In this document: piece by piece, positions 19,832-33,546 of the stretch | How positions within the stretch are numbered: position 1 is the stretch's first letter | Layout: the number at the start of each line of letters is the position of its first letter | Virus record (IMG/VR): IMGVR_UViG_3300047470_000529 | Location: 1-50,193 of that record | Length of the DNA stretch: 50,193 nucleotides | Reading direction: 5' to 3' (one strand) | From: a virus | Position numbers and translations under genes: made by a program | The notes under the pieces: generated by a model | Databases searched by the model: none | Seen by the model: only the letters and a program-made list of their open reading frames with translations | What the model was told of the DNA's origin: nothing

Positions 19832-19841
19832 AGCGTCATGC

Positions 19842-19870
19842 TACGAACCGGGGCGGTCGGTTATTACCGC
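19842..19870 (-). promoter_or_regulatory. Late-promoter element, tape measure copy
   Basis: Minus strand GCGGTAA (19870-19864), 18 nt, CGTA (19845-19842), 10 nt, then the tape-measure ATG at 19831. It is one of four copies of GCGGTAA-N18-C(G/A)TA in the window. The spacing predicts a transcript that starts almost at the ATG, in keeping with the missing Shine-Dalgarno. Confidence 0.6.
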
Positions 19871-19886
19871 TATTGAGGGGTTGGGT

Positions 19887-20315
19887 ATGCGGGGCCTGAA
19901 ACTCGGGATTGTGGGCGCTCTGGCTCTAGCGTCAGGATGCGATGACACCCCAAAGCGCAAAGAAGGCGCGACCCTAGCCTGTGAGGCTTACGTAAAGGAT
20001 GGCCTGAAAGCGCCATCGACATATAGCCGGGTGTCGGCCTCTTCGAATATTGAGAGCAAAGAGCTAGGATCGGTATCGATTGAATATGATGCTGAAAATT
20101 CTTACGGCGTACCGTTGAGAGGACGCCAATCCTGCGCCTTCAAACTTGATGAAGAAGGAAAGTGGCCGGAGCCTTGGGCCGCGAACTTTGCCGCCGAAGG
20201 ATCGGTGCTGGAAAAACATACGCGCAGCATCAATTCGCCCGGCAACCCTGATTCCGATCTGAAGGCGACAGGGTCGTCGGGATACGACTGCTGCCTCGCT
20301 ACGGAGGAGGAGTGA
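19887..20315 (+). CDS. Lipoprotein, probable lysogenic-conversion cargo
   Basis: 142 residues from the ATG at 19887 (GAGGGG 6 nt upstream). A short basic start, a hydrophobic LGIVGALALASG stretch and Cys18 form a clear lipobox (ASGC). The mature part has further Cys residues, including a C-terminal YDCCLA. It is on the strand opposite to the late genes and inserted between tape measure and tail chaperone, the typical place and orientation of a moron. It could alter the cell surface or exclude other phages. No family recognised. Confidence 0.7.
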   Translation: MRGLKLGIVGALALASGCDDTPKRKEGATLACEAYVKDGLKAPSTYSRVSASSNIESKELGSVSIEYDAENSYGVPLRGRQSCAFKLDEEGKWPEPWAANFAAEGSVLEKHTRSINSPGNPDSDLKATGSSGYDCCLATEEE

Positions 20316-20563
20316 TGGCAAAGCATTTCCCCACCCCGGAAGAAAAGCGAGAGCAGGGCCGCCTGCGGATCGCGAAAACAGCGGCGCAACTACCGGACGC
20401 GAAGTTCAAGCCGATCCCGAACACAACGGCGGCAGGCTCATGTAAGGCATGCCGCGCCGCCGGAAAGAAGTCCTACCGCGCCGCCGATGTTCCCTTGATG
20501 CCTCTGCCCGAGTGCCCGCATCCCGACCAGTGCGCCGGGATTTACCGGACCATTTGGCCTTGA
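20315..20563 (+). CDS. Small Cys protein, possible zinc-binding
   Basis: 82 residues starting at ATG 20315, sharing one base with the lipoprotein stop. It contains CKACRAAGKKSY and CPHPDQCAG, four cysteines spaced as two knuckles, so zinc binding is likely. Probably co-transcribed with the lipoprotein. A hairpin terminator follows. Confidence 0.62.
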   Translation: MAKHFPTPEEKREQGRLRIAKTAAQLPDAKFKPIPNTTAAGSCKACRAAGKKSYRAADVPLMPLPECPHPDQCAGIYRTIWP

Positions 20564-20566
20564 TGT

Positions 20567-20592
20567 AAGGGCGGCCCCGTAGAGCCGCCCTT
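20567..20592 (+). terminator. Hairpin terminator of the lipoprotein unit
   Basis: AAGGGCGGC (20567-20575) and GCCGCCCTT (20584-20592) form a perfect 9-bp stem with an 8-nt loop, 3 nt after the stop codon. The U-tract is weak. Confidence 0.6.
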
Positions 20593-20638
20593 GCATCCCT
20601 CAGCGATCCGCCGCAAGCGCCGTTCGCTAGGTTAGCCC

Positions 20639-20667
20639 TTGTGGATAGTTTGCCTAACGCATATTTT
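20639..20667 (+). promoter_or_regulatory. Promoter of hicBA
   Basis: -35 TTGTGG (20639-20644), 17-nt spacer, -10 TATTTT (20662-20667). The predicted start falls inside an inverted repeat just downstream, as expected for an autoregulated toxin-antitoxin operon. Confidence 0.5.
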
Positions 20668-20671
20668 CCTG

Positions 20672-20739
20672 TCATGTGGAAAACATGAGTCGAAGCAAAG
20701 GGCGTGCGGTGGGGGCAGATCGCATCAGTTCGGGAACTG
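20672..20739 (+). promoter_or_regulatory. Two palindromes upstream of hicBA, candidate operators
   Basis: TCATGT-GGAAA-ACATGA (20672-20688) overlaps the predicted transcription start. CAGTTC-GG-GAACTG (20726-20739) lies in the leader. Both have perfect arms. HicB-type antitoxins commonly repress their own promoter, so either could be its operator. The binding itself is inferred. Confidence 0.45.
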
Positions 20740-20815
20740 CGCTGTGAATCGCGCGTTGCCGGTTTATTCACATTGGAAGCGTATCGTCGAAACCATGCAA
20801 CGGGGGAGCCGCTGG

Positions 20816-21097
20816 ATGGAAAAACACGTGTCTATGAAGGTCGAACTGAGCGTCCACCTTGCCTACGACGAGGAGGCGAACGTGTGGTATGTTGCATCCT
20901 CTGATATTCCAGGTCTTTTCCTTGAGGCTGATACCCCGCAAGAATTGATTTCGCGCTTAAAGGAGGCTGCTCCTGAAATGCTCGCGCTCAACCTTGCTGA
21001 AATTCTGGAAAAACAGCCGATGAAGAAGCCCAAAAAGGCGCCTCGCATTTCGCTGCTTCCCGTCTTCGACAGCCCGATGGAACTGGCGTTTGCCTGA
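20816..21097 (+). CDS. hicB: HicB-like antitoxin (DUF1902-type)
   Basis: 93 residues from the ATG at 20816 (GGGGGAG 8 nt upstream). An internal GTG/ATG at 20831/20834 is also possible. The domain core VWYVASSDIPGLFLEADTPQ followed by ELISRLKEAAPEML is the partial RNase-H-like HicB fold (DUF1902 variant). It should neutralise the adjacent HicA and autoregulate. The antitoxin precedes the toxin, 2 nt apart. The C-terminus lacks an obvious HTH, so any DNA binding would use another element. Confidence 0.85.
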   Translation: MEKHVSMKVELSVHLAYDEEANVWYVASSDIPGLFLEADTPQELISRLKEAAPEMLALNLAEILEKQPMKKPKKAPRISLLPVFDSPMELAFA

Positions 21098-21099
21098 TC

Positions 21100-21291
21100 G
21101 TGCCTGGATACACGCCTGAGCTAAAGAAGCTCCTCTCCCAATCAGGTTGCGAATTTTTCCGTCAGGGCAAGGGGGACCATGAAATTTGGTCCACCCCCAG
21201 CGGCTGCAAGATAATAGTCGATGGGAACATTAAGTCCCGCCATACGGCTAACGGCGTCTTGAAGCAGGCAGGCCTAGACAAGGCCTTCTAA
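21100..21291 (+). CDS. hicA: HicA-like toxin, mRNA interferase
   Basis: 63 residues with a GTG start 2 nt after hicB. The fold pattern LKKLLSQSGCEFFRQGKGDHEIW is typical of HicA, with the likely catalytic His27 in the GDHEIW motif, then the IIVDG strand and a C-terminal helix (ANGVLKQAGL). HicA toxins cleave RNA until bound by HicB. In a prophage the pair may stabilise the element or block superinfection. Confidence 0.87.
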   Translation: MPGYTPELKKLLSQSGCEFFRQGKGDHEIWSTPSGCKIIVDGNIKSRHTANGVLKQAGLDKAF

Positions 21292-21313
21292 AGCCGACCT
21301 CATGCTGCGAGCT

Positions 21314-21927
21314 TCAAGCTCTATGCGCATCAACAAACCGCCGCAGCCTTTCGGGATCGACAGAACCGCTGTTTCCGCCCTCAGGCTGATGCGCCTCGTT
21401 GTGGGCCTCCAGGGCCTCGAAATACCCCGATAGCGACAGGCGCTCCCAATCGAGGTGCATCCCGCCACAATTAGCGATCAGCTGTCCTTTTCGGAGGGGC
21501 TGGGGTTCTCGATATCGCCCGCGTCCGGCGCTTTTTTTTTGAGATCGATGCCGACGATCGCCGCGTGGAGAATCGACCAGGCGACGTGCAGGCCTTCAAT
21601 CAGGGGGCGGTTTGGGAAGGTGTAGGCTTCCACCAGTTCGTTGGCGCGGCGAGGGCCGACCTCGATATCAGCGCCGTCGACGGTTCCCGCGTTGCCGCCC
21701 TGCAGCCCGAGGCGGATCACCTCGCGGATGTCGGTAGCTTTGGCATCGCCGCCGCCGAGATAGACCGGCTCATCGCCATTAAGGCCCAAGCCCGCACCCA
21801 TCTCGTCGTACATACGGAAGATCGACTTGCCGCCGGCCTTCCGTTCAAGCTCGATCACATGCGGGAGCGCGAGCCAGAACGAATAGCGGCCATCTGCGAA
21901 GTCGAGATCAACCCGAGTGTCTGGCAT
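21314..21927 (-). CDS. Tail assembly chaperone, -1 frameshift product (G-T type)
   Basis: At the A9 run (minus strand, 21540-21532) a -1 slip moves ribosomes from the G frame into an open frame that continues to a TGA at 21316-21314, giving 204 residues. The extension contains HLDWERLSLSGYFEALEAHN and SVDPERLRRFVDAHRA, a compact domain like those fused to tail chaperones. It has no good independent start: the ATG at 21460 lacks a spaced Shine-Dalgarno. This is the lambda G/GT arrangement, placed as expected between tail tube and tape measure. Confidence 0.75.
21478..21927 (-). CDS. Tail assembly chaperone, short (G-like) form; GTA-type family
   Basis: 149 residues. The block VDLDFADGRYSFWLALPHV, the VIRLGLQGG region and LIEGLHVAWSILHAAIVG match the tail-chaperone family also found in gene transfer agents. 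It ends shortly after an A9 run that encodes KKK, the shift site for the longer product. TAATG links it to the tail-tube gene. Confidence 0.78.
   Translation of the reverse strand: MPDTRVDLDFADGRYSFWLALPHVIELERKAGGKSIFRMYDEMGAGLGLNGDEPVYLGGGDAKATDIREVIRLGLQGGNAGTVDGADIEVGPRRANELVEAYTFPNRPLIEGLHVAWSILHAAIVGIDLKKKAPDAGDIENPSPSEKDS
21532..21540 (-). promoter_or_regulatory. Slippery A9 frameshift site
   Basis: Nine consecutive A on the minus strand, read as AAA AAA AAA in the zero frame and followed by GCG. It fulfils the X-XXY-YYZ rule for -1 slippage by tandem tRNA-Lys. It is an exceptional homopolymer for this GC-rich element. Confidence 0.7.
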
Positions 21928-22385
21928 TAGGGCGCCGGGGTAAAGACGAGCGGGCCGTCGCCTTCAAGTGTGATTTCGACAGTACCGGCGTCATCGGAGG
22001 TCTGGTCGAACGTCTCGTTGTGCGTGGTGAGCATGGCGGTCCCGGAATAGGTGCCGAGCAAATCGCCCAGATCGTCCGTCTCGTTATCCTTGTAGAGCGG
22101 GACCGAATAGATGCGCTTGACGCCGAACGCGTCGGCATATTCTTCCTGCAGATCGACGTTGCTCTCGCCGCTTCCTGAGATGCTCCAGGTCGTGCCGTTG
22201 TTGCGGATCTTGCGCTGGGGCGGCGCGAATGGAGCAGCGCAGTCGCGCACCTGGCGCTCGCCAAGCGTGACACTGCGGTTGATCGTCACATTGCGGATGC
22301 CGCAAAGCAAAGCCAGCACGGCGGGCGGGCCAGCAGCAGTCTGGATCTGGATCAAGGCTAGGTCTGCGCTATTCGGAATGCTCAC
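21927..22385 (-). CDS. Major tail (tube) protein
   Basis: 152 residues from the GTG at 22385 (GGAG 8 nt upstream; a TTG at 22391 is too close to the ribosome site). It is a beta-rich sequence with GTTWSISGSGESNVDLQEEY and a C-terminal VEITLEGDGPLVF strand pair. Size and position before the chaperone and tape measure identify the tube protein. The ribosome site lies in a hairpin. Confidence 0.75.
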   Translation of the reverse strand: MSIPNSADLALIQIQTAAGPPAVLALLCGIRNVTINRSVTLGERQVRDCAAPFAPPQRKIRNNGTTWSISGSGESNVDLQEEYADAFGVKRIYSVPLYKDNETDDLGDLLGTYSGTAMLTTHNETFDQTSDDAGTVEITLEGDGPLVFTPAP

Positions 22386-22393
22386 GGGCAAGT

Positions 22394-22415
22394 CTCCAGC
22401 ATGGGTTTGCTGGAG
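22394..22415 (-). promoter_or_regulatory. Hairpin containing the tail-tube ribosome-binding site
   Basis: CTCCAGC (22415-22409) and GCTGGAG (22400-22394) on the minus strand form a perfect 7-bp stem with an 8-nt loop. The 3' arm contains the GGAG of the tail-tube gene. It could limit or time translation, or mark the 5' end of a processed mRNA. Confidence 0.5.
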
Positions 22416-22417
22416 GT

Positions 22418-22446
22418 TACGGCGCGTCAGTCAACCGATTTACCGC
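22418..22446 (-). promoter_or_regulatory. Late-promoter element, tail-tube copy
   Basis: Minus strand GCGGTAA (22446-22440), exactly 18 nt, CGTA (22421-22418). It overlaps the 3' end of the preceding gene. Unlike the other three copies it is followed by a short leader with a hairpin and a Shine-Dalgarno. The predicted start is around 22408. Confidence 0.55.
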
Positions 22447-22672
22447 CCTCTATGGCATGGAAGCGGGCGCGGGCACGATCTGCCTCCCAATCCGACTGTT
22501 CGGGTGCGGCAGCCTCAATGATAACGCAGCGCAAGGCGTGAGCAGCTTCCTCATCGCCCGCCTTATCAAGGCGATCTGCCGCCTCGGCGATGTCATCGGG
22601 ATCGACCGCCTCGACGCGGATCATCTGTGCCAGGAATGCGGACAGCATGCGCTCTGCGAGGGGTGTTTCCAT
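22427..22672 (-). CDS. Hypothetical tail-region protein
   Basis: 81 residues from the ATG at 22672, preceded by GGAGGGG (rather close). An ATG at 22726 would overlap the DUF3168 gene by 41 nt and lacks a ribosome site. It is a helical, acidic protein of unknown role. Its last codons overlap a late-promoter element. Confidence 0.55.
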   Translation of the reverse strand: METPLAERMLSAFLAQMIRVEAVDPDDIAEAADRLDKAGDEEAAHALRCVIIEAAAPEQSDWEADRARARFHAIEGGKSVD

Positions 22673-22685
22673 CCCCTCCAGCCTA

Positions 22686-23144
22686 TCAGCCTGCGTAGGT
22701 TCGGGCAATGACTGAGACGATGCCATGCCAGGCGCTCGCCTCGGAACCGTCTTGCATCAGGCGCGAGGACCGGGCGACGAAGCGATATCGCCGCCCGCCG
22801 ACGATGAACGCATGATTGTGAATCGCTTCGACGACGGCGCTGTTCAGCCGGCCAGCATGGTCGCGTGCAGTTTCGAGCAAGCCTCCATCTTTTGGATCAT
22901 CGCCGACGTAGCGAGGCTTGGCGAAGCTATGCAGTTGAAACGTCACCTCGGCCCGCGCTGAACAGCCTCGTCCCTGCGGTAGCGATTGCGTCCCGTCGAT
23001 GCGCACGAACGGCCACGCGGGTTCTTCGGTGACGGGATCAATCGAAGCCTTCGCAACGATCGCGGTAAGCGGTGCATTGCCTTTCAGGCTGATCGTGCAT
23101 GCGCGTTCGACCTCGCGCAGGAGGTCACTCGCCAACGGCCTCAT
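22686..23144 (-). CDS. DUF3168 tail completion/terminator protein
   Basis: 152 residues. The pattern PWPFVRIDGTQSLPQGRG, EVTFQLHSFAKP, RDHAGRLNSAVVEAIHN and RSSRLMQDG is typical of DUF3168 tail-completion proteins, which cap the tail tube at the neck. The place between the HK97-gp10-like gene and the tail tube agrees. Confidence 0.78.
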   Translation of the reverse strand: MRPLASDLLREVERACTISLKGNAPLTAIVAKASIDPVTEEPAWPFVRIDGTQSLPQGRGCSARAEVTFQLHSFAKPRYVGDDPKDGGLLETARDHAGRLNSAVVEAIHNHAFIVGGRRYRFVARSSRLMQDGSEASAWHGIVSVIARTYAG

Positions 23145-23301
23145 CCTTCTTGGGCTTCGGTGCGGGCTTGAGGGCGTCGGCCTTTTTCGCCGCGTCGAAG
23201 ACCTCGTTGCTGACCTCGATCTCGACGTTCGGCGGATAGATGGCAGTGCGGTGATTCGGCAGCGGGTGGTGGAACTCGCGGGAGAAGGTGACGCTGTGCA
23301 T
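23125..23301 (-). CDS. Small protein with Lys/Pro-rich tail
   Basis: 58 residues; AGGAGA lies upstream of the ATG at 23301, which overlaps the HK97-gp10-like stop (TAATG). The core is TAIYPPNVEIEVSNEVFDAA, with a basic tail KPAPKPKKDE. It shares 20 nt with the next gene. Similar short proteins occur among neck genes of related phages. Function unknown. Confidence 0.6.
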   Translation of the reverse strand: MHSVTFSREFHHPLPNHRTAIYPPNVEIEVSNEVFDAAKKADALKPAPKPKKDEAVGE

Positions 23302-23732
23302 TAGGTGTCTCCTGATTTTGAGCGCCTGACGACGCGATCGACGGCTTTGCGGACGAGCTGGGTTGCCTGCTTGCGCTTGGCGTCTGCGGCAGGCTGCATG
23401 AAGGGCCTGGCGGGTAGCTTGGAGTGGCCGAACTCCTGAGCGGCCGAATACGGGGCGTTGCTGCTCACTTCGACCACCAGCGGGTTGATCTGGGTCGTCT
23501 CGATGTTGTTGGCGAGAACGCCGGTGTCTTGGTTCGGCGGCTTGCCTGGCTTTGATGGCACGTGCTTCGCGCCGCTCACTGCGCCCGAGGTGATGCTGAT
23601 TTGCGCCTCGACTTGGATCATCTCACCGGCCGCGAATAGCGCCTTGCCGACCTCGCGGATCATATCCGGCCCGGTCAGCTTCTTCATGCGCGCGGCATGC
23701 GCCTTGGCGCCGATCAGGCTGGACTTAGCCAC
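23301..23732 (-). CDS. HK97 gp10-like neck/tail protein
   Basis: 143 residues from the GTG at 23732, which overlaps the upstream stop by 8 nt. The family pattern is visible: EVGKALFAAGEMIQVEAQ, then HVPSKPGKPPNQDTGVL, and the VEVSSNAPYSAAQEFGHSK block with ARPFMQPA. HK97 gp10-type proteins act in head-tail joining. Confidence 0.82.
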   Translation of the reverse strand: MAKSSLIGAKAHAARMKKLTGPDMIREVGKALFAAGEMIQVEAQISITSGAVSGAKHVPSKPGKPPNQDTGVLANNIETTQINPLVVEVSSNAPYSAAQEFGHSKLPARPFMQPAADAKRKQATQLVRKAVDRVVRRSKSGDT

Positions 23733-24102
23733 GGCGGCCCGTCCCAACCCACCCGGCCGCAACCGGATCTCTCTCCAGCGACGAAACAGACCACAGCCCG
23801 GCATGGGGCCCGGCCAGCACCTCGATCATCGCGTCGGTGCCCAGCGTGCCTGTGAGCGTCGCAGCAAGCACGATGAAGCGCACGTCCTTTTCGACGAACT
23901 TAGGATCGTTGCGCATGTCGGTGGTGACGAGGTCGATCTGCACCGAACAGGTCCGGTGCACGACGCCGCCGGGGGTGATGATGCTCCCGCCGTCGTCATA
24001 GACCGGTGCGGTCTGCTCGATCGTGCGGGCGTCGTGATAAGGCCCACCGAATACCGCGGAGAACGCGAGGCCGATGTCGGCGAAGGCGCTGGGCATGTCC
24101 AT
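23725..24102 (-). CDS. Head-tail connector component, function unknown
   Basis: 125 residues in the neck cluster. The beta-rich body (RTCSVQIDLVTTDM; FIVLAATLTGTLGTDAM) with a C-terminal WSVSSLERDPVAAGW block resembles head-closure (stopper) proteins. The assignment rests on size and place. The start could be ATG 24102 or 24096. Confidence 0.6.
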   Translation of the reverse strand: MDMPSAFADIGLAFSAVFGGPYHDARTIEQTAPVYDDGGSIITPGGVVHRTCSVQIDLVTTDMRNDPKFVEKDVRFIVLAATLTGTLGTDAMIEVLAGPHAGLWSVSSLERDPVAAGWVGTGRRG

Positions 24103-24498
24103 TTAGCAGGGCGTCCCGAGGAAGCCGATCAGGACAGGCCCGCCGAATAGCCGGCGCTGGATCTCGGCGAACATTTGGCCCCAGATCGTCGATCCGTATC
24201 CGCCCTTCGCACGCGCCGACACGACACTATCGCTGATCGTGGCAGAAAATGTGCCAGATTTGAAACTGGTCGCCCCAGTGGCCGCCAGCGTTGCGGCGCC
24301 GGCCGGAAGTCCCACGCTGTTGCTCGCCAGTAGATGCGCGGTCAGGTATTCCGTCGCGTCCTGCTGCTCGTCGCCGTAGTTCTCGCCGACGCGCCGCTCG
24401 GCCTTGACCGCCCAGGCGTCGTACTGCGGCTGCGTGAGTGTGGAGAACGCCGGGTGGAGCGTCTGGAACTCGGTTAGGGTGAGGCGGGTGTAGGGCAT
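24103..24498 (-). CDS. DUF4054 head-tail adaptor
   Basis: 131 residues. The N-terminal LTEFQTLHPAFSTLTQPQ block, the YLTAHLLA helix and the central VVSARAKGGYGST segment are typical of DUF4054 neck proteins that contact the portal. It is the first gene after an intrinsic terminator, so it depends on read-through or another promoter. Confidence 0.78.
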   Translation of the reverse strand: MPYTRLTLTEFQTLHPAFSTLTQPQYDAWAVKAERRVGENYGDEQQDATEYLTAHLLASNSVGLPAGAATLAATGATSFKSGTFSATISDSVVSARAKGGYGSTIWGQMFAEIQRRLFGGPVLIGFLGTPC

Positions 24499-24512
24499 CA
24501 GGTGTCCTTACG

Positions 24513-24545
24513 AAAAGGGCCGCCGCGTGCGAAACGAGGCGGCCC
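24513..24545 (-). terminator. Intrinsic terminator after the capsid genes
   Basis: On the minus strand GGGCCGCC (24545-24538) and GGCGGCCC (24524-24517) form an 8-bp GC stem followed by TTTT (24516-24513). It lies between the capsid operon and the neck/tail genes and would reduce transcription from one to the other. Confidence 0.7.
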
Positions 24546-24567
24546 CTGTGTGTGAGCGATGAGCCGC

Positions 24568-24870
24568 TTACTTGGCGGGCTTGGTCAGCGCCTCGACCTG
24601 CTTGGTGAGGTCGGCCTTGTCCTTGGCCAGAGCCTTGTTATCCGCCGTCAGCGCCTCGACCTGCTTGGTGAGGTCGGCGACCTGGGCCGCGAGAGCCTTT
24701 ACTTCGCCGTCGTCGGATGCGGATGCGCCCGGCTTCTTCCCAAGGTCGGGAACCTCGCCAATGATGTCGTCGGCGTCGATCTCGACAGACTGGCCGGGGT
24801 CAATCCAGACGGTGCCGGCCTTGGTATTCACGCCGCGCGGGCCGAGGTGGTAGTTCGTGAGCTTCTTCAT
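24568..24870 (-). CDS. Small coiled-coil protein downstream of the capsid gene
   Basis: 100 residues. The first ~55 are beta-like (TVWIDPGQSVEIDADDI); the rest is a coiled coil made of two copies of ADLTKQVEALT. The coil is encoded by a 32-bp DNA repeat (24584-24615 and 24647-24678), so it can expand or contract by recombination. Possible minor head protein. Confidence 0.6.
   Translation of the reverse strand: MKKLTNYHLGPRGVNTKAGTVWIDPGQSVEIDADDIIGEVPDLGKKPGASASDDGEVKALAAQVADLTKQVEALTADNKALAKDKADLTKQVEALTKPAK
24584..24678 (-). repeat. 32-bp direct repeat within the coiled-coil gene
   Basis: Identical 32-bp copies at 24584-24615 and 24647-24678, 63 bp apart (a whole number of codons). They encode the repeated ADLTKQVEALT heptads. 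Confidence 0.85.
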
Positions 24871-24872
24871 GA

Positions 24873-25820
24873 TCAGATCCCATCCCGGTAGCTGACGCCC
24901 TTGGGGCGATAGATTTCCGTCTGGCCGACGTTCATGATGCCGTCGACGCGCCAGGACATCGAGGACAGCGGGTGCAGCGGCAGGAAGGTGAACGCGCCCG
25001 GCAGGAAGAATTCCAGCACGCCGGGGTTGCGAGCATAGGCGACCATGCGCTTCGTGCCGCCGGCGCCTGCCGTCTCCAGTTCGCGCGCGGGCATGATGTT
25101 CAGCGGCTGACCCGTGATCGCGGTATAGGCGTTGTTCTGCTGCAGGAACGCCAGGACCGTCATGCCGGTGTCGCCCATGCGGGTCGTCGAGGCATCGAGG
25201 AAGCTGGAGGTCGGGAGCAGCAGCGTGTCGGCCAGCTCGGTTTCCTTCGTGCTGGTGTACACGTCGGTCAGCGCGAGGTTGATGTCGCGGGCCTTCTGGT
25301 CTGGGGTCTTCGTGGCCCAGGTCGTGGTCGTGCCAGTTCCGTCTGCCGGAACATTGGCGGTCGGCACCGTTGCGTTGTTCAGCAGGCCGGTGAAGCCCTT
25401 CTCGGTCGAACCGGTCATGGCGCGATCGTAGATGAACTTCTCGCCGATCTTGCGAGCGCCCGAGGCGTCACGGGTGTTGATGTCGACGCCCATCTTCGAG
25501 GCGCGGTTCACTTCCTGCAGCGACAGTTCGTAGCCGCAGCCTGCGAGGTGGAAGTTCGACACGCCCTGGGCCATCTGGGCCGAGGTGTTGGGGATGTCGA
25601 AGCCCTTGCCCGAAAGGTACTCGGCCTTGCCGGCGGGGCCAGTGAGGGATGTGACGATCGTCCCGACATCCCACATGTCGCCGTCTTCGTTGGTCGGGAT
25701 GTACATGGCGTAATTGAACGCCGGGTACTTCTCTTCCATGACGGTCGCATGGGTGCGGTAGAGGGCGGGGCGAGCGAAACCGAAGGCCTGCTGCGCGTCG
25801 GCGAAAATCTGACCGGTCAT
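24873..25820 (-). CDS. Major capsid protein (DUF2184-type)
   Basis: 315 residues. It has a characteristic mid-region (GVSNFHLAGCGYELSLQEVN, then IGEKFIYDRAMTGSTEKGFTG) and a C-terminal LPLHPLSSMSWRVDGIMNVG followed by an IYRPKGV strand typical of HK97-fold capsid proteins of this family. It follows the scaffold/protease and cement-protein genes, the standard order. Confidence 0.88.
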   Translation of the reverse strand: MTGQIFADAQQAFGFARPALYRTHATVMEEKYPAFNYAMYIPTNEDGDMWDVGTIVTSLTGPAGKAEYLSGKGFDIPNTSAQMAQGVSNFHLAGCGYELSLQEVNRASKMGVDINTRDASGARKIGEKFIYDRAMTGSTEKGFTGLLNNATVPTANVPADGTGTTTTWATKTPDQKARDINLALTDVYTSTKETELADTLLLPTSSFLDASTTRMGDTGMTVLAFLQQNNAYTAITGQPLNIMPARELETAGAGGTKRMVAYARNPGVLEFFLPGAFTFLPLHPLSSMSWRVDGIMNVGQTEIYRPKGVSYRDGI

Positions 25821-25832
25821 TATTGTGCCCCC

Positions 25833-26306
25833 TTAGCGGCGCACGATACGGCAGATGCCGTTCGTTACGGTTTCGTCTGCGATCCATCCGGTCGCGATGT
25901 GGGTTGCGTCAGCGGCAGTGGAGCCGATGCCGTCTGCCGCGCCTGCGCCCGTACCAACGGTGATCGCAGCGTCATCGACGACTGCACCGGTCACCGTGAC
26001 GTAGATCGCGCCATCGGTGAGGATGCCGGCCGTGGCGTACTGCGGGTACGTGTCGACCGCGCCGGTGATGACGGCGGGGACGATGCCCCGGTCAGCGATG
26101 GCCCAACCGTAGAAGGTTGCGAGCGTGCCGACGGTGGTGATGCAGCCGTGGTCGTTGGCACCGCGATAGAGCGGGGCGCCGAAGGCAGCGCCTGCAGCGG
26201 ATTCGACCGTGCGGCTGATGCGGTTGGAGGTTTCGCCGTTGGCGATCATGCCGGGGTAGCCCTTGGGGTAGTCCTCGGCGTAGGTGGTCTGAATCGTGAT
26301 TGCCAT
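25833..26306 (-). CDS. Structural cement / head decoration protein (DUF2190-like)
   Basis: 157 residues. The N-terminal DYPKGYPGMIANGETSNR, the IADRGIVPAVITGAVDTYPQ segment and the VTVTGAVVDDAAITVGTG run match phage structural cement proteins that sit with DUF2213 and DUF2184 genes. It stabilises the capsid surface. Confidence 0.75.
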   Translation of the reverse strand: MAITIQTTYAEDYPKGYPGMIANGETSNRISRTVESAAGAAFGAPLYRGANDHGCITTVGTLATFYGWAIADRGIVPAVITGAVDTYPQYATAGILTDGAIYVTVTGAVVDDAAITVGTGAGAADGIGSTAADATHIATGWIADETVTNGICRIVRR

Positions 26307-26318
26307 GATAGTGGCTCC

Positions 26319-27479
26319 TTACGCTGCGGCCGAGGTGGCAGGGGTTTTCCAGGCGTTGCGGCGGGCTTCCGAAGCCTTCCGCTGCGCATCGGCGAGGGTG
26401 GTCTGCGCGTCGAGCGTGACGACCGGCGAACCGATCGGCTGCACCTCCTGGTCATCGACCTTCGTGTCCTTGGTCAGGACCGCGAACGAAGCGGCGATCT
26501 GGTCGGCGGTCCATTCCTTGGCCGTGTCGCCCATCTTCGCGGTGACGGTCGCGGCCATGATCTGGCCCTCGTCCATCGCATCGGTGACGGTGACGCCCAG
26601 CGCCTTCGCGCGGCCGGCGGTCAGCAGCAGCGCCTTGCCGGCGTCACGAAGCTGCGCCGGGGTCGGCTTGGCGTCCTTCACCTGCTGTTCGAGCGTGGTG
26701 ATCTTCGCGTCCTTGGTCTGGCCCTCGGCAGTGAGGGTGGACACCTTGCCGGTCAGGTCGGTGACCTGGGTGGCGGCGGTGTCGCGCGCGGCGATGAGGG
26801 TGGCGATGGTCGTGGCGGCGGTGTCCACGTTCGATACGTCGACGGACAGCCCATCGATGACTACAATCTTCGGCACAGGGCTCTCCTGGGTGAGGGAATC
26901 GAGGATGTTGGAGGGGAGGGCATCGCAGACGGCGAAACCGTCCTTGATGGCGCATTCGGAACCGGCGCGGCCGCGATCGACCAGCGCGACATGGTTTCCG
27001 GCGATGGAGGTCTGGCGCGCCTGGCACTTGGTGCCGTCGGCTGCGGTGAAGTCGCCGAATTCGAGGTCGGCGCTGTAGCCGTTGCTCAGTTCGCGCTTGC
27101 CGGCGTCCACCTTGGCGATGGCGCTGGCGTCGGTCAGCAGGAGGTCGAAGGCCAGATACCCGCCTTCCTCCCACTTGGCGCCCATGATGGTGCCGCGCGA
27201 TAGTTCGCGGTGGTTATCGGCGGTGACGGCGACCGAAGGGTGGTTGTCGGTGATCGGCTTGCCGATGAAGCTGTGGACGGCCTTGTGATCGAAGACGGTC
27301 TTTTCGTCCCGCAGCACCTTCACGATCGCGGTGTCGCGCAGACCGTGCTTGTTGTCGGGGTCTACCTCAGTGCCAGCATAGTCATAGACGCCGGTACGCG
27401 CAGCCCGCGCGCGGACAGCCAAATAGCCGTCGCTGGTGCGGCGCGGGGCGTCTAGCGTGAGGCTGTCGGCAAAGTACAT
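26319..27479 (-). CDS. DUF2213 capsid scaffold/protease
   Basis: 386 residues from the ATG at 27479 (a GTG at 27488 is the alternative; neither has a Shine-Dalgarno). The N-terminal ~190 residues are the DUF2213 domain (RTGVYDYAGTEV; HSFIGKPITDNHPS; RELSNGYSADLEFGDF; IAGNHVALVDRGRAG), a prohead-protease-like fold. A coiled coil (about 215-290) probably acts as the scaffold. A late-promoter element ends 11 nt before the ATG. Confidence 0.85.
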   Translation of the reverse strand: MYFADSLTLDAPRRTSDGYLAVRARAARTGVYDYAGTEVDPDNKHGLRDTAIVKVLRDEKTVFDHKAVHSFIGKPITDNHPSVAVTADNHRELSRGTIMGAKWEEGGYLAFDLLLTDASAIAKVDAGKRELSNGYSADLEFGDFTAADGTKCQARQTSIAGNHVALVDRGRAGSECAIKDGFAVCDALPSNILDSLTQESPVPKIVVIDGLSVDVSNVDTAATTIATLIAARDTAATQVTDLTGKVSTLTAEGQTKDAKITTLEQQVKDAKPTPAQLRDAGKALLLTAGRAKALGVTVTDAMDEGQIMAATVTAKMGDTAKEWTADQIAASFAVLTKDTKVDDQEVQPIGSPVVTLDAQTTLADAQRKASEARRNAWKTPATSAAA

Positions 27480-27490
27480 GGCCCGCACGA

Positions 27491-27519
27491 TATGGGCGAG
27501 CGCCGTTGCGGTTTACCGC
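27491..27519 (-). promoter_or_regulatory. Late-promoter element, scaffold/protease copy
   Basis: Minus strand GCGGTAA (27519-27513), 18 nt, CATA (27494-27491), 11 nt, then the ATG at 27479. GCGGTAA is here part of a short palindrome, GCGGT-TT-ACCGC (27508-27519). Confidence 0.6.
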
Positions 27520-27558
27520 CGTTGTTTTAACGTGTTGGTTCTACAAAGGAGAATCAGT

Positions 27559-27693
27559 TTGGACAACAATCAGGCACTCGCAATTATCACTGCTTTGCGC
27601 GGCATCCAGCAGCAGCAAGAACAGCAGACGGAGGCACTCAAGAAGATTGCCGAGGCTCTCGTAAAGCTCGATCAAACGGCACAGCTTAAGTAA
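27559..27693 (+). CDS. 44-residue coiled-coil protein on the opposite strand
   Basis: TTG start at 27559 with AAAGGAG 7 nt upstream. The product is one amphipathic helix rich in Gln (IQQQQEQQTEALKKIAEAL). It lies on the plus strand between two minus-strand head genes, like a tiny moron, and its stop is 2 nt from the convergent gene's stop. Function unknown. Confidence 0.55.
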   Translation: MDNNQALAIITALRGIQQQQEQQTEALKKIAEALVKLDQTAQLK

Positions 27694-27695
27694 CC

Positions 27696-28499
27696 TCAGT
27701 CAAACGTAACCACCGCTTGCGACCTGCACCCGCAGTAAGGCAACCGCCCAGGTAGATCCTGCGGCGCCGTAGCATCGGTGTAATCCTTGCCGTCCCGCGC
27801 TGCGTGCTCGGGGCGGTAGTGGAGCTTATGGCTCGATCGCCACTTCCACGTATCGATGCCCGCTTCCCGCCGGCGCTCTTCGGCGAGCGCGCTGGTTAGC
27901 TTCGTGAGCTGGTCGGAGGCGATCCGAACCGACCTGTCGCGGCCCAGCCCGGTCTTTTCACGGATCGCCTTAGCCACGTCGCGCGCCGGGGTGCGGTTCG
28001 TCAGCCCGTCGAATACCGCGGCGCCGATGCGCTGGCGCACTTGGTCGCTGACGTCCTGCACCAGCGCCGTGTTCCACTGGATTGTCGTCTCCAGGCTGGC
28101 GCGGACATCGCCGGCGCCGAGCATCGTATCGAGATCAACGCCGGTGGCGCTCAATACGGCCCCTCGCCACTTCCCGCGCTGCCACTTCTCGACATTGAGC
28201 GCCCAATCCCGAAGCGATGGGGTAAGCAGCAGCACCAGGCGGTTCACCTCCCCTGCCGCGCTGTCGATCTCGGCTTTCACGTCAGCGGGGGAATCGGTGG
28301 TCAGTTCGCTGATGGTGCGGGCGTATTCGGCCTCGATGCGGGGGAGGGCGTTCGTCCAGGCGGTGATGACTGGCAGATAGACAGCCCGGTAAAGGTCGGT
28401 GGCCAGCACAGCCGGGGGCACGATGTCGCGCAGGACGATGCTCGACCGGCGGATATTGCGCTGCCGGCGGGCGAGGGTGGCTAGGTCGAAGCGGGGCAT
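27696..28499 (-). CDS. Head morphogenesis / minor head protein (SPP1 gp7 / Mu gpF-like)
   Basis: 267 residues. It has a helical N-terminal region, then TGLGRDRSVRIASDQLTKLTSA with WKWRSSHKLHYRPEHAARDGK and a C-terminal GRLPYCGCRSQ, the conserved end of SPP1-gp7/Mu-F proteins. They sit at the portal vertex. ATGA-coupled to a small membrane-protein gene. Confidence 0.82.
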   Translation of the reverse strand: MPRFDLATLARRQRNIRRSSIVLRDIVPPAVLATDLYRAVYLPVITAWTNALPRIEAEYARTISELTTDSPADVKAEIDSAAGEVNRLVLLLTPSLRDWALNVEKWQRGKWRGAVLSATGVDLDTMLGAGDVRASLETTIQWNTALVQDVSDQVRQRIGAAVFDGLTNRTPARDVAKAIREKTGLGRDRSVRIASDQLTKLTSALAEERRREAGIDTWKWRSSHKLHYRPEHAARDGKDYTDATAPQDLPGRLPYCGCRSQAVVTFD

Positions 28500-28657
28500 C
28501 AGCGTGACGGGCGAGGTGGCTCAGGTGATCCCGGTGGCGCAGGAGGCGGCACGCGCGGGCGAACCGAACCGCGGCCGCGTCCCGCCAACACGAAAGGCGC
28601 CAGCAGCAGCAATGCCGAGATCAGGATGAAGGCGGCGGGGTCGTAGGGGAAGCTCAT
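28499..28657 (-). CDS. 52-residue membrane protein between portal and head morphogenesis genes
   Basis: ATGA overlaps at both ends. It has one hydrophobic segment (about 9-25, AAFILISALLLLAPFVL), then an Arg-rich turn and a Pro-rich tail (PPPAPPGSPEPPRP). It would be a single-pass membrane peptide made with the head genes. Function unknown. Confidence 0.6.
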   Translation of the reverse strand: MSFPYDPAAFILISALLLLAPFVLAGRGRGSVRPRVPPPAPPGSPEPPRPSR

Positions 28658-30618
28658 GCCTCAGTCACCTTCGATTTCCAGTCGAGGTCCAGCGGCTCGA
28701 ACAGTTCCGGCCCGAACTCCAGTGCGCCAGCGAACGGCTTGAGCGCGTCGAGGTCGAAGTGGGCCGGCACATCGAACGAGATGGTCACATGTGGCTGATA
28801 GCCCTCGAAGTCGTGCGAGCCGCCAGCCTCGATCATGGAGCGGTGCCGCCCCTCAATGTCGTAGGACGCGAACAGCAGCACCACGGCGCTCGGGCCAAGC
28901 CGCTCGATCGCGCGCGGGCCGCCGGGCTTCACGCGCACATGGCCGTTCTCGTCACCGCTCCAGCCTTCGCCCATCTTCATGGGGTCGACAGGGGTACGCG
29001 AGTAGAGGACGGTGACGTGCATATCGTCGGCAGTGAGCGTGGACTTGAAGCCGTTCGCCTTGGCCCAAGCGATGATCTCGGTGCCGTTCAGGAGCTTGCG
29101 CTGGACGTAGAGCGGGCGCGGGGCGGCGTCGACGAAGAAAGCTGCCGCATCATTGGCGGCACGGCGGGGCGGCGCGCTTCCATTCGAACCGCCCGTGCCG
29201 GCAGATTTCGGATCACCTCCTTCGCTCGACTGTAGCGCTGACGGATCGCTGCCATCAGGGCTTGGGTTGAGGCCGAATCTCTCGTCTTCGGGCAGTTCGG
29301 CAAGCGCGCCATCGAGGCCAGGCATCCACCCGTTCTCGGACATGCTGTTCTGATAGGCTTTGGCGTAGGCCTCATCGGGGATCGCGCCAGACATGCGAGC
29401 GATCTCGGCGGCCTCGGTCCAGGTCTTGAACCGCGTAGTTTCCTCTGCCTCAGTGGGCGTGGAGAGCGGCGCGAACTTATACCATACCTCTGGCGGGCGC
29501 GATCCAAGCGCGGAGGGGATAAGCGCTGCGTCGATCTGGTCGAGGCAGGGGACGAGTTCAAGGTTCTGGCCCATCGCGACTTCGCGGTTCCAGTTGTCGC
29601 GGTCGTGATCTCCGCTGGCGTTAAGGCCGCCAGGCGATCGACCCTGCAACACCGTGAACGGGATGCCTGACACCGCGGCAATCCGCTGGTCGAATGCGTC
29701 CATCATCGCGGGGATACCGTTCCACGACACTTGATAGTCGTCAATTTTCTCGCTCGGGCTGGTCCCGTCTCCGGTGTCGTACAGCGTCCCGTTGAGAACG
29801 CTTTCGCTCAGAGCGATGGCGCTCATACGGCGGTTCATGCGCTCCTGACCGCCAGGCTTCGAGATGCTGTCGGTCAGGTTGGGGATGCCGATGCGCAGCA
29901 GTTTGGCCTTGCGGATCAGAGCGGCAAACCATGCCTGGGCGTTGTCCGACCGCTCCACCGACTTCCACAGCCGGACAAGGCGCGATTTCCCCCAGAATGC
30001 TTGATCCGAACTGACACCGTTGCCGGCCATCAGCGGATCGCCACGGAAACAAACGACGCGCGATGGATGGAACTCGGTTTGCAGGTTACCGATCTTGTAG
30101 GACTTCGGCATGCCGTAATCAGGGCTGGATAGTTCTTGCTCGATCTCAACGAGCGTGATCTGATCCTTGTGAACCACGTTGATTGCGACGAGGCCGCCTT
30201 CGCGCGTGACATTGATGGGTTCGGCATGATTCCCGGCCGTGACCAGGATCAGGGCACCGCCACCTAGGCCGCGCAGGATTTCAGCGGTTTTGATTTTGGC
30301 AACCAACCCTAGGCGCTTTTCCTCGGCCTCCAGCTTCTCGATCTGTTCTTGATCCGCCTGCCAGTCGCGCCATTCGCGCACACGATCGTTGGCCGGTAGC
30401 TCGATGACCCGCTGCATCATCCCGCTCGCGCAGTAGGCGGCATAGGCAAGCTGGGGCGCGAACATGCGAGACATCGCGCCGCCGAACTGTTGCATCGGGC
30501 TACCCGCGAACTCAATCGCCTCCGTGATCCCGTCGTTCAAATTACGCGGCACCGGGGATTGCGTGGGGGTAGCGGCGAAAGGCGTACCGCTCGCGTCGAG
30601 AATGGGGGAGCCTGCCAT
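28654..30618 (-). CDS. Portal protein (DUF1073) with C-terminal Acb1-like 2H phosphodiesterase domain
   Basis: 654 residues from the ATG at 30618. Residues ~30-470 form a DUF1073-type portal (IEFAGSPMQQFGGAMSRMF; GIPFTVLQGRSPGGLNASGD). Residues ~500-654 contain two HxT motifs (DDMHVTVLYS, His534/Thr536; YQPHVTISFD, His610/Thr612), the active-site signature of 2H phosphodiesterases. This matches Acb1, which degrades the cyclic nucleotide signals of CBASS defence. The fusion may serve defence evasion as well as packaging. A longer start at 30666 would overlap terminase. A late-promoter element ends 10 nt before the ATG, which has no Shine-Dalgarno. Confidence 0.85.
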   Translation of the reverse strand: MAGSPILDASGTPFAATPTQSPVPRNLNDGITEAIEFAGSPMQQFGGAMSRMFAPQLAYAAYCASGMMQRVIELPANDRVREWRDWQADQEQIEKLEAEEKRLGLVAKIKTAEILRGLGGGALILVTAGNHAEPINVTREGGLVAINVVHKDQITLVEIEQELSSPDYGMPKSYKIGNLQTEFHPSRVVCFRGDPLMAGNGVSSDQAFWGKSRLVRLWKSVERSDNAQAWFAALIRKAKLLRIGIPNLTDSISKPGGQERMNRRMSAIALSESVLNGTLYDTGDGTSPSEKIDDYQVSWNGIPAMMDAFDQRIAAVSGIPFTVLQGRSPGGLNASGDHDRDNWNREVAMGQNLELVPCLDQIDAALIPSALGSRPPEVWYKFAPLSTPTEAEETTRFKTWTEAAEIARMSGAIPDEAYAKAYQNSMSENGWMPGLDGALAELPEDERFGLNPSPDGSDPSALQSSEGGDPKSAGTGGSNGSAPPRRAANDAAAFFVDAAPRPLYVQRKLLNGTEIIAWAKANGFKSTLTADDMHVTVLYSRTPVDPMKMGEGWSGDENGHVRVKPGGPRAIERLGPSAVVLLFASYDIEGRHRSMIEAGGSHDFEGYQPHVTISFDVPAHFDLDALKPFAGALEFGPELFEPLDLDWKSKVTEA

Positions 30619-30628
30619 AGGGGCACGG

Positions 30629-30657
30629 TACGTTTCGGGATGGCAGGATTTTACCGC
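30629..30657 (-). promoter_or_regulatory. Late-promoter element, portal copy
   Basis: Minus strand GCGGTAA (30657-30651), 18 nt, CGTA (30632-30629), 10 nt, then the portal ATG at 30618. It occupies most of the 41-bp gap after terminase. Confidence 0.62.
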
Positions 30658-30659
30658 TG

Positions 30660-32048
30660 TCACCATGCGTCTGGGTTGTAGGTTGCGCCGCCCATCATCA
30701 GCTCAGTCATAGCCCACACCAGCGCATCGGCTCTGTCTGGTGAGCCCTCGCCGACGTACCCGGACGCGGTGAAGTTGCACATCTGGTCCTCAAGGTCGGG
30801 CAAGCTACCAACGTGGCTGACCTTGCCCTGCTCGTACAGCGCGGCGATCGGCTCGGCGCGGATCACCTTGCCGCGGGTAGCTGTGACCTCTTTGAAACGA
30901 GGGATGCGCCGATCCCCCGCAGCGCGGATTACCGCGCCGACCATCGCGCCTCCAAAGTTCTTCTCAGCGACAACACAATCCGCTTCCCACTTTTCGGCCA
31001 TATCAGCGACTCGCCGGCCCCAGCCCTCGGGCGATAGCTGGCAGGTGGCATCCTCCAACACGTAGGCCCGACCATCCACGCCCTTGCCTGCGACCACTAT
31101 GCCGATATCATCGCCTCCGCCGTCGCCTTTGGTGCCCGATGGGTCGACGGCAACCACGATGCGCTGCATGTCGGGCAGATCGCCCTTCGCTACCCGGAAG
31201 CGATCGATGCCCGGTATTTCGCCGCCCTCGGTTACCCGGTCCTCAATCGTCCAGAGCGCCCCGTTGACCTCGCTGGCCCACTCACCCTTTTCAAAACGCA
31301 GGCGCTGGGCCGCGCTCATGTTGGCGAGGATCTCGAAATATTTGGGCGGCAGGTTGGCGGCGTTGTCGGCCGGGTTGACCAGCATCTCGGCATAGTCGTC
31401 GGGGTCGGCCAGCTTCTCCTTGGTGCCGGGCTTCATCTTGGCGCGGAACAGCACATACGACCAGTGCAGCTTAGACGGCGGGTTGCAGTCGAAGTAGGCC
31501 TTGAGGGGCAGGTGGGTGCGACCAGTCGCAGCGGCAATCGCGGGATCAAGCGGGACGTTTTGCGCCAAGCGGGACATCGCCATTTCGACCGAGGACCAGG
31601 CGATCTGGCTGCTCTCGTTGAAGTACAGCGTGACGTACTCGGCGCCCAGGATTTTCTCGACGCGCTCCTTGTCGTCGAGGCCGCCGATCCAGATTTGCGA
31701 GCCGTTCGGAAACTCGATGTAGAAGTCGGTCTTGTTCCAGGTCACCGCCAAGCCGGGGAAGCACAGCTTGAGCACCTTGGGCAGGGTGTCCGACCAGATC
31801 GACGTCTTCGCGTGGTTGAACCGGAAGCGGAATATCGCATGCCGGCCGCCGGGCGCGTTGATGGCCCGCTGACAGATGGCGCGGATCAGCAGGAACGTCT
31901 TGCCCGAGCGCGAGCCGCCCCGGAGCATGATGTTGGTGGCAGCGCTGGCGAGCAGGTCGCGCGCCTCCTCCTGCTTTGGGGTGAGTTTGGCGATCGGCGG
32001 GCCGCCGTTGTGACCTATGCCGGGTGCTATCTTGGCGGGTGCGTTCAC
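30660..32048 (-). CDS. terL: Terminase large subunit
   Basis: 462 residues from the GTG at 32048 (GTGA overlap). Walker A GGSRSGKT (44-51), Walker B YVTLYFNES (138-146), and an RNase-H-like nuclease domain with VVAVDPSG, VVAEKNFGG and the C-terminal DRADALVWAM. It cuts and pumps the DNA concatemer into proheads. An in-frame start at 32180 would lie within the upstream gene. Confidence 0.95.
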   Translation of the reverse strand: MNAPAKIAPGIGHNGGPPIAKLTPKQEEARDLLASAATNIMLRGGSRSGKTFLLIRAICQRAINAPGGRHAIFRFRFNHAKTSIWSDTLPKVLKLCFPGLAVTWNKTDFYIEFPNGSQIWIGGLDDKERVEKILGAEYVTLYFNESSQIAWSSVEMAMSRLAQNVPLDPAIAAATGRTHLPLKAYFDCNPPSKLHWSYVLFRAKMKPGTKEKLADPDDYAEMLVNPADNAANLPPKYFEILANMSAAQRLRFEKGEWASEVNGALWTIEDRVTEGGEIPGIDRFRVAKGDLPDMQRIVVAVDPSGTKGDGGGDDIGIVVAGKGVDGRAYVLEDATCQLSPEGWGRRVADMAEKWEADCVVAEKNFGGAMVGAVIRAAGDRRIPRFKEVTATRGKVIRAEPIAALYEQGKVSHVGSLPDLEDQMCNFTASGYVGEGSPDRADALVWAMTELMMGGATYNPDAW

Positions 32049-32287
32049 AGAAGTCCTGAACGCTCTGCCCAAGCGGCAAAAGCCCGCTCGACACCACGAC
32101 GGGCAGAGCTCTTGCCCTTCACGTGCCCGAAACCCTTCGCGATCCATTTCACGGTCACGCCATCGACCTTGTACCACCACGTAGACGGGTCATCGTTGAG
32201 ATTGCCGATCATGCCGATGGGGCTTTCGCCAAGGTAGGCGATCTCTGAAACGCCGTGAAACGCTTCCCACCGCAAACGCACACTCAC
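32045..32287 (-). CDS. Small protein between the terminase subunits
   Basis: 80 residues, GTG start, GTGA overlaps on both sides. The block PSTWWYKVDGVTVKWIAKGFG (about 35-55) is a compact beta fold and the C-terminus is a basic helix. It may be a terminase accessory protein. Confidence 0.6.
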   Translation of the reverse strand: MSVRLRWEAFHGVSEIAYLGESPIGMIGNLNDDPSTWWYKVDGVTVKWIAKGFGHVKGKSSARRGVERAFAAWAERSGLL

Positions 32288-32802
32288 AGCGCCGCGTCCT
32301 TCGCATCCACCACGACGGTAAGACCGCCGGTGTGCTCAATGCGCTCCTTGAAGGCCTGCACGTCGATGTGCTTGCCGATCAGTTCGAGCCGCTTGATGCG
32401 GTCGGACAGCTTTACCTTCTGGACGGTGGCGTATTCCGGGTTGCCATGCTCGTCCTCGCCGACCTTCTCCCGCACCGTCTCCAGGCCGGCTACCAAGCCC
32501 TTGCGCCAGATCATGGGCCAATCGGCCACAGGTCGAAGGTTGCCGTGATCGTCGTAGATGTCGGCAACGTCCGCTTCGGCTTCCTCGGCCAGGCGCATGA
32601 GTAGCCAATCAGCATCGACCTTCGTCCGTTCCGAGCGTTCGGCCTTGGCTGCTGCGATAGCGGTAGCGATGTCGGGTTTCGTCAGGTTCTCTGCACCCAT
32701 CGAGCGAGCCGTTCGCGCGCTATAGCCTGCTCGCAGGGCGGCCTGCGTAGCGTTCAGGTCGAGAAGGTATTCGCGGACGAACGCGATCTGTTTCGGTGTC
32801 AC
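32284..32802 (-). CDS. terS: Terminase small subunit
   Basis: 172 residues from the GTG at 32802 (GTGA overlap, GGGAG upstream). The N-terminal VTPKQIAFVREYLLDLNATQ followed by AALRAGYSARTA is the classic HTH of terminase small subunits. The middle (ADVADIYDDHGNLRPVADWP) and C-terminal KLSDRIKRLELIGKHIDVQAF are equally typical. It binds pac/cos DNA and recruits TerL. Confidence 0.9.
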   Translation of the reverse strand: MTPKQIAFVREYLLDLNATQAALRAGYSARTARSMGAENLTKPDIATAIAAAKAERSERTKVDADWLLMRLAEEAEADVADIYDDHGNLRPVADWPMIWRKGLVAGLETVREKVGEDEHGNPEYATVQKVKLSDRIKRLELIGKHIDVQAFKERIEHTGGLTVVVDAKDAAL

Positions 32803-32999
32803 CGCCCATGCTCCCGCAAATACCGCTTCCGACACTCAGCCATCCGCTTAGCCCCGACGACAGCGCGGTATATCCGCACCGACGGCTTGCCGAACATCCG
32901 CTCGACGTGCTGCCACCCATGCGCCGCGAACTCGTCAAGGAACTCAGGCGGCACATACTTGGGCGCCGATGTGGGCAGCAATTTACGCCGCGTCGTCAT
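32799..32999 (-). CDS. Small basic protein upstream of terminase
   Basis: 66 residues from the ATG at 32999, GAGGA upstream. The WQHVERMFGKPSVRIYRAVVG block and basic C-terminus suggest DNA binding, perhaps with terminase. Overlaps the preceding gene by 17 nt. Confidence 0.58.
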   Translation of the reverse strand: MTTRRKLLPTSAPKYVPPEFLDEFAAHGWQHVERMFGKPSVRIYRAVVGAKRMAECRKRYLREHGR

Positions 33000-33546
33000 G
33001 TGCTTCGTCCTCGTTGATGATGCCCTTGAACCCAACGGCGCGCAGGGATTCGGCGAACAGTGCCTGGGCGGCCGGGGTGCTGCGGTTCCACTGGCGGACC
33101 ATCAGCGTGTGGAAGGTGCTGTCCACGTCCTCGTCGTCGAAGCGCTGGCCGGTGCTGTAGCGATGCTGCATCACCACCTCCCGGCAGTCGTTCACGCTCA
33201 GGTGCTCGCGGGCGGCGCGCTTGAGCAGCGGCAGGGCCTCGTCCTTGGGCAGGCTGGCGACCGCGGCGTGGTGCTCGACCGACAGGGTGCTGTCGCGCAG
33301 GGCTGGCGGGAACGTGGTCGCGGCCTTCAGGGCATCCTTCAGGCGCTTGGGTGCGAGCCCGAGGTTGTCCTGCAGGAAGTCGAACTTCGCCTGGGTCAGG
33401 TGGCCGGCGGTCTTACCCTCGGCCATCCAGTCGGCAATGCGCCAGTCGGTGTCGAGGCGTTGGGCGACCAGGGCGCGGCCTTGGGTGATCCAGTCCTCCA
33501 AGGTGGCAGGCAGGGGCGCCGCCTCGATGATGGTGATGGCGTTCAT
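32983..33546 (-). CDS. Helical putative regulator, ParB/KfrA-like middle region
   Basis: 187 residues from the ATG at 33546 (ATGA overlap). The region LRDSTLSVEHHAAVASLPKD and EALPLLKRAAREHLSVNDCR (about 88-128) resembles the HTH part of ParB-type proteins. It is placed immediately before terminase, where late regulators often sit, so it is one candidate for the protein that recognises the late-promoter element. This is a guess. Confidence 0.5.
   Translation of the reverse strand: MNAITIIEAAPLPATLEDWITQGRALVAQRLDTDWRIADWMAEGKTAGHLTQAKFDFLQDNLGLAPKRLKDALKAATTFPPALRDSTLSVEHHAAVASLPKDEALPLLKRAAREHLSVNDCREVVMQHRYSTGQRFDDEDVDSTFHTLMVRQWNRSTPAAQALFAESLRAVGFKGIINEDEAHDDAA

Follow-up and report, generated by a model that had tools for sequence, protein, structure and literature searches.

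How a sphingomonad-type phage turns on its late (virion) genes is the question raised by this locus, in which one bipartite sequence element recurs in front of the portal, head maturation protease, tail tube, and tape-measure genes. The window, that is, the whole stretch of 50,193 nucleotides analyzed, carries a short-chain-dehydrogenase-like fragment at its left edge (1-411) and an integrase at its right edge (49135-50193), which suggests an integrated prophage whose boundaries lie close to the contig ends. An Rfam search of the window detected no RNA family.

The element GCGGTAA-N18-C(G/A)TA had been described in a sequence-only reading as occurring on the minus strand at 30657-30629, 27519-27491, 22446-22418, and 19870-19842. 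All four copies proved to be exact, and the window contains no further ones; 0.03 copies were expected, and none of 100 shuffled sequences reached four. That reading had counted one other GCGGTAA on the minus strand, where two exist (15083-15077 and 30935-30929), both within coding sequence and both without the second half. The gaps of 10, 11, and 10 nt that separate the motif from the ATG codons of the portal, protease, and tape-measure genes were likewise found as described, none of these starts having a Shine-Dalgarno sequence, and downstream of the tail-tube copy lies a GTG start that has one (Table 1). From the provisional label "scaffold/protease" for the gene starting at 27479 only the second part was retained, as this gene codes for a head maturation protease (phrog_530). 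A possible plus-strand cassette (19737-21097), with a weak HicB-like match at 20639-21097 (phrog_497, E = 0.001), lies between the tail genes and the tape-measure gene.

Table 1. Predicted late promoters of the window and the genes next to the terminase region
Feature	Position	Strand	Details
Late promoter P1 (portal)	30625..30662	-	operator TGACAGCGGTAA 30662-30651; -10 TACCGT 30630-30625
P1 predicted +1	30618	-	A of the portal ATG; start site predicted from geometry
Late promoter P2 (head maturation protease, followed by decoration and capsid genes)	27487..27524	-	operator CAACGGCGGTAA
P2 -10 TATCGT	27492-27487	-	predicted +1 27480; ATG 27479
Late promoter P3 (tail tube)	22414..22451	-	operator GCGGTAA core; -10 TAACCT 22419-22414
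P3 leader	predicted +1 near 22407	-	GGAG Shine-Dalgarno 22397-22394; GTG start 22385
Late promoter P4 (tape measure)	19838..19875	-	operator AATAGCGGTAA; -10 TAGCAT 19843-19838
P4 predicted +1	19831	-	A of the tape-measure ATG
reg	32799..32999	-	66 aa; adjoins the small terminase gene on its upstream side and overlaps it; proposed activator of late genes
Small terminase subunit	32284..32835	-	first late gene after reg (landmark)
LmbU-like regulator gene	32983..33567	-	immediately upstream of reg; NF038070, E = 1.4e-11, below the curated cut-off

Relatives were gathered by means of the major capsid protein, which yielded 48 loci in viral contigs. The exact motif was present in 14 of these loci with 23 copies in all, every one on the gene-sense strand and many of them 9-11 nt before an ATG. 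Both blocks and their spacing are thus kept in related phages; a lack of such conservation had been named beforehand as a refuting outcome. The comparison also revealed that the motif as first drawn is only part of the signal. Its left half, here called the operator, reaches further upstream (TGACGGCGGTAA in most relatives), and its right half C(G/A)TA is better read as the beginning of a -10 hexamer TANNNT. Relatives without the spelling found in the window (type A) carry a different one at the equivalent place, as was found by lining up their homologous genes; a de novo search for 7-mers upstream of all ORF starts was too noisy to be useful because permissive ORF calling swamps the signal. 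At least five spellings of the putative operator are well supported, and each phage uses one of them; the left halves are CGGCGGTAA, CGACGGTAA (type B), CGTCCGTAG (type C), CGTCGGTAR (type D), and CGAACCTAC (type E). Two further types, CCGCCGTAA (F) and CGGCGGGAA (G, from Synechococcus phage Ssp-JY40), have few sites and are tentative. In phages of their own type the sites were found in sense and antisense orientation in ratios of 90/12 (A), 12/0 (B), 61/2 (C), 7/0 (D), and 32/0 (E), as well as 3/1 and 4/1 for the weak types F and G, respectively; since the type labels were drawn partly from these same sequences, the strand asymmetry is the independent part of this result and the match of type to phage is not.

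Two side observations concern the relatives themselves. A block of 1.95 kb around the capsid gene is 93% identical in L008 (10464-12417) and L009 (8279-10232; both in working coordinates), which have different operators and unrelated flanks, and this block represents a recent capsid cassette exchange. Capsid similarity was therefore dropped as proof of linkage and served only as a contrast in the analyses below. Two phages with recorded Synechococcus hosts, PP438430.1 (Ssp-JY40; L097) and OM868076.1, both have a homologue of the Reg protein introduced below, and PP438430.1 shows the variant late signal GCGGCGGGAA before its portal and protease genes. Apart from these two, such features were found in sphingomonad-type phages alone, and a check of the recorded host may be worthwhile.

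The layout of the signal is fixed in the relatives, with an operator of approximately 9-12 bp at -44 to -33, a distance of 20 bp, a weak -10 element (TANNNT), and an ATG close to +1. One common spacing applies to 176 sites of six spellings: in all spellings the T and A of TANNNT lie 20-21 nt past the operator and the final T lies at 25. The bases expected of an activator-dependent sigma-70 promoter at T-12, A-11, and T-7 were present in 11, 12, and 12 of 12 type-B sites, in 15, 15, and 13 of 16 type-E sites, and in 57, 80, and 39 of 89 type-A sites, and the -10 element is weak in type C; these sites would presumably be read with sigma-70. If the first T of TANNNT is set as -12, the ATG comes to lie at +1 or +2. 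An ORF start was found 31-35 nt after the operator at 118 of the 176 sites, compared with 4-24 sites at shifted offsets, and 112 of these 118 near starts are ATG. Only 10 of the 118 near starts are preceded by a Shine-Dalgarno sequence, as opposed to 37 of the 43 starts that lie further away (Fisher p = 5e-21), the background for such tetramers being 16%. This contrast is what leaderless and leadered mRNAs, respectively, would be expected to show. At three of the four sites in the window the start-codon geometry and the lack of a Shine-Dalgarno sequence agree with the leaderless or near-leaderless mRNAs that had been suggested before, the ATG coinciding, within one base, with the predicted 5' end. 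In 30 of the 89 type-A sites the operator begins with a TGA that also terminates the upstream frame (e.g., 30662-30660, which ends terL in the window). Leaderless mRNAs with an ATG at the 5' end and no Shine-Dalgarno sequence are known from Caulobacter and Sinorhizobium, with 375 such mRNAs in C. crescentus, another alphaproteobacterium (PMC4117421). The phage regulon described here differs in that leaderless starts appear to be the rule and to be built into a dedicated type of promoter.

The candidate for the protein that acts on these sites is Reg. Among the non-structural genes surveyed in the 20 kb that precede the capsid gene, reg proved to be the most widespread, and it adjoins the terminase genes at the same place whatever the terminase type. 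Its product Reg was detected in 21 of 26 motif-bearing phages in a single search pass and in nearly all after iteration; it is present in every motif-bearing phage for which the terminase region is available and in none of three motif-less relatives. Altogether, 73 of 77 regions contain Reg. Of 398 Sphingomonadaceae genomes 16 contained it as well, and in a draw of 385 alphaproteobacterial genomes it was restricted to that of Sphingobium SYK-6, on which this draw had been centred. Loci with Reg and without a clear motif exist as well (L121, L127, L132, L163, L185, L199, and the short L128). No match was obtained for Reg in Pfam, PHROG, and NCBIfam, a profile search of PDB sequences returned nothing, and Foldseek searches of the PDB and of viral models gave no significant match. 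AlphaFold2 models show a compact, small, all-helical domain (pLDDT 83 and 79), and many Reg proteins have a C-terminal tail of the form R-x-R-R-Y-V-x-G-x-x-L-T. Reg is most likely a helix-turn-helix protein, an assignment that draws on the sequence pattern and the small AlphaFold model since the fold searches yielded no solved homologue.

The relationship between Reg and the operator was assessed by several approaches. Operator type correlated with Reg distance (Mantel r = 0.34, p = 0.0002), in contrast to capsid distance (r = -0.07) and protease distance, for which no correlation was found. Portal distance also correlated (r = 0.47), the portal gene being physically next to reg, so that part of the association may reflect co-inheritance of a reg-terminase-portal block, and the correlation with Reg distance given portal distance was r = 0.15 (p = 0.01). 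On the Reg tree the operator label changed 8 times, compared with 14.3 times in shuffled data, and 0 of 200 shuffles were as low. In a blind test, new contigs were pulled with Reg proteins and the nearest labelled Reg was used to predict the commonest operator; of 62 unseen loci tested, which include close relatives of the training phages, 16 were undecided and 44 of the 46 decided ones had the predicted spelling. Operator type followed the protein found and not the query used in L194 and L195, which were pulled with a type-B query and yet have an A-like helix and type-A sites, and in L167, which was pulled with an A/D query and yet has a C-like Reg and type-C sites. L043 breaks a simple helix-to-operator rule by having a C-like recognition helix but type-A sites, and the mapping from Reg to operator is not one-to-one.

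The correlation with portal distance leaves room for the view that the real operator-binding factor is another phage protein co-inherited with reg. One candidate is the LmbU-like protein, whose gene immediately precedes reg in the window and 28 further regions. It mostly accompanies short Reg proteins and tends to be missing where Reg has the tail ending in RRYVxGxxLT. A factor of this family should occur wherever the motif does, and the LmbU-like gene is absent from many motif-bearing phages, being found in 29 of 77 regions as opposed to 73 for Reg. Where present it occurs alike with types A, C, F, and G and is not tied to operator type. Furthermore, in surveys starting from the window, L010, and L017 no other non-structural gene was as universal as reg. 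It is thus distinctly unlikely that a co-inherited protein takes the place of Reg; the LmbU-like protein is a possible partner of Reg.

An activator of another kind is known from the gene transfer agents (GTAs) of Alphaproteobacteria, whose late genes are activated by GafA and GafY, proteins with a DnaA-like domain (PMC9638019; PMC11150451). The window encodes a small protein of this sort (36478-36927, minus strand; DnaA domain IV, PF08299, E = 8e-8), the gene of which overlaps the upstream helix-turn-helix gene 36927-37436 (phrog_16695). It is GafY-like in its domain, but a DnaA-like helix-turn-helix protein does not accompany the regulon, as PF08299 was found in 3 of 30 relatives and the motif in most of them. 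This protein was rejected as the activator on these grounds, and a GafA/GafY-like role for it at these promoters is extremely improbable.

The sequence-only reading had likened the right half of the motif to the -10 elements of ECF-type sigma factors, and a host alternative sigma factor of this type could in principle recognize GCGGTAA as its -35 element and C(G/A)TA as its -10 element. The two blocks do stand at -35/-10 spacing, and CGTA resembles ECF -10 elements. However, the right block lines up as TANNNT, its T at -7 being conserved, and behaves as a sigma-70-like -10 element, and the left block varies among phages of one host family, its type being correlated with a phage gene. Neither the five left halves nor TANNNT corresponds to the GGAAC-like -35 and CGTC/CGTT-like -10 sequences of ECF promoters. 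The pattern expected of such a factor, with sites conserved across the phages of one host group and present also in host genes, was not found. The 4.3-Mb genome of SYK-6 contains six type-B copies (2,385,653-2,406,008), all on one strand, in a stretch of about 20 kb downstream of reg and in the late region of one prophage, compared with none in the reversed control of the same scan, and in six other genomes approximately 38 of 41 type-A copies cluster likewise downstream of reg. This confinement to prophages argues strongly against a host regulon or an ECF sigma factor, and the ECF reading is accordingly very improbable. Among phage-encoded proteins, no sigma factor was found above the curated cut-off. 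The sole candidate, a protein of 90 aa (4444-4716, plus strand) with a Sigma70_r4-like helix-turn-helix just under the Pfam cut-off (E = 4e-5), was rejected, as it is sub-threshold and not conserved in the relatives.

The earlier proposal of a dedicated late-transcription signal thus gains support from conservation, spacing, and start-codon geometry in the relatives, and the repeated element is the predicted on-switch for the late genes of the phage. We consider it likely that it is an activator-dependent late promoter at which Reg, as late activator, recruits the host sigma-70 polymerase. This model combines the motif, its extended consensus, the spacing, the start-codon geometry, the restriction to prophages, and the matching of Reg and operator types; DNA binding by Reg (from the co-variation with the operator), activation, the use of sigma-70, and the exact 5' ends are what we infer from them. 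Reg would be produced before or at the onset of the late phase from its gene beside the terminase genes and would bind the left block at approximately -44 to -33 in place of a -35 box. Host RNA polymerase with the housekeeping sigma-70 would thereby be brought to the weak -10 element (TANNNT), which lies 20 bp further on. For the portal, protease, and tape-measure genes, the transcript would begin with the ATG itself or one base ahead of it and be leaderless, and the tail-tube unit would receive a short leader with a Shine-Dalgarno sequence. The window appears to hold one set of a phage-private regulon, of which related phages carry matched but different pairs of protein and signal.

An alternative is that Reg acts mainly as an antiterminator like Q or GafZ, for which these sites would be the place of loading onto polymerase, and does not raise initiation; the position of reg just before the late operons would suit this role. 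GafZ of the Caulobacter GTA binds a promoter and travels with the polymerase (PMC11150451). Each phage has 4-8 separate sites, however, each heading a gene or unit, the promoters lack a -35 box, and the operator lies at -44 to -33 and not between -35 and -10. In addition, the late region was scanned for intrinsic terminators, which were no more frequent than expected by chance. Antitermination as the main function is therefore unlikely. A further-reaching version of the activator model, which we regard as possible though doubtful, is that Reg is a minimal stand-alone module for -35 recognition that replaces region 4 of sigma, and that its recognition helix and the operator have diversified together among sphingomonad phages, giving at least five late-transcription systems that are mutually exclusive and coupled to leaderless translation of the virion genes.

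These results describe what appears to be a family of late-gene regulators of phages that lacks annotation, along with the predicted binding sites; no earlier model for late transcription in this bacterial family was found in the literature searched. Sequence alone gives a predicted start site, regulon, and regulator, and allows start codons of virion genes to be corrected. The data suggest that leaderless translation may be the standard mode for the virion genes of a phage. With the matched variants of Reg and operator, it can be tested directly how a protein of 65 residues alters its DNA specificity; if the reading of Reg as a -35 module is true, these variants would also amount to a naturally occurring library for a code of protein-DNA recognition.

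Among known systems, the activators of the lambda CII type resemble the proposed Reg in being small phage helix-turn-helix proteins that overlap the -35 position and act with a sigma-70 -10 element. CII binds TTGC-N6-TTGC, in which it differs from the Reg operators, and a single Reg had an insignificant CII-like match in PHROG (E = 0.21). In bacteriophage Mu, the C protein serves four late promoters (PMC4461284). It resembles the proposed system as a phage activator that works with host polymerase at several late promoters without consensus -10 and -35 boxes, from a site next to the -35 region (PMC4461284), and the arrangement of a phage gene preceding the late operons with several late promoters, here approximately 4-8 sites per phage, is shared as well. 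Unlike that of C, the Reg site would stand in place of the -35 box and shows no evident palindrome, the promoters are mostly leaderless by prediction, and the operator spelling diversifies between relatives. Reg had no significant match in Pfam or PHROG, and with no Pfam family match no similarity to Mor/C was seen. GafA and GafY/GafZ similarly control phage-derived late clusters of Alphaproteobacteria through dedicated regulators and promoters with degenerate -35 boxes, and GafY contacts RpoD (PMC9638019; PMC11150451). GafY binds at approximately -120 together with IHF, unlike the proposed Reg site (PMC9638019; PMC11150451), the DnaA-like domains of GafA and GafY belong to a family that Reg does not match, and the promoter of the Caulobacter GTA drives one long leadered operon instead of several mostly leaderless units. 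By analogy, Mu C with its four late promoters is the closest working counterpart of Reg, and GafY/GafZ is the closest one within the same bacterial class.
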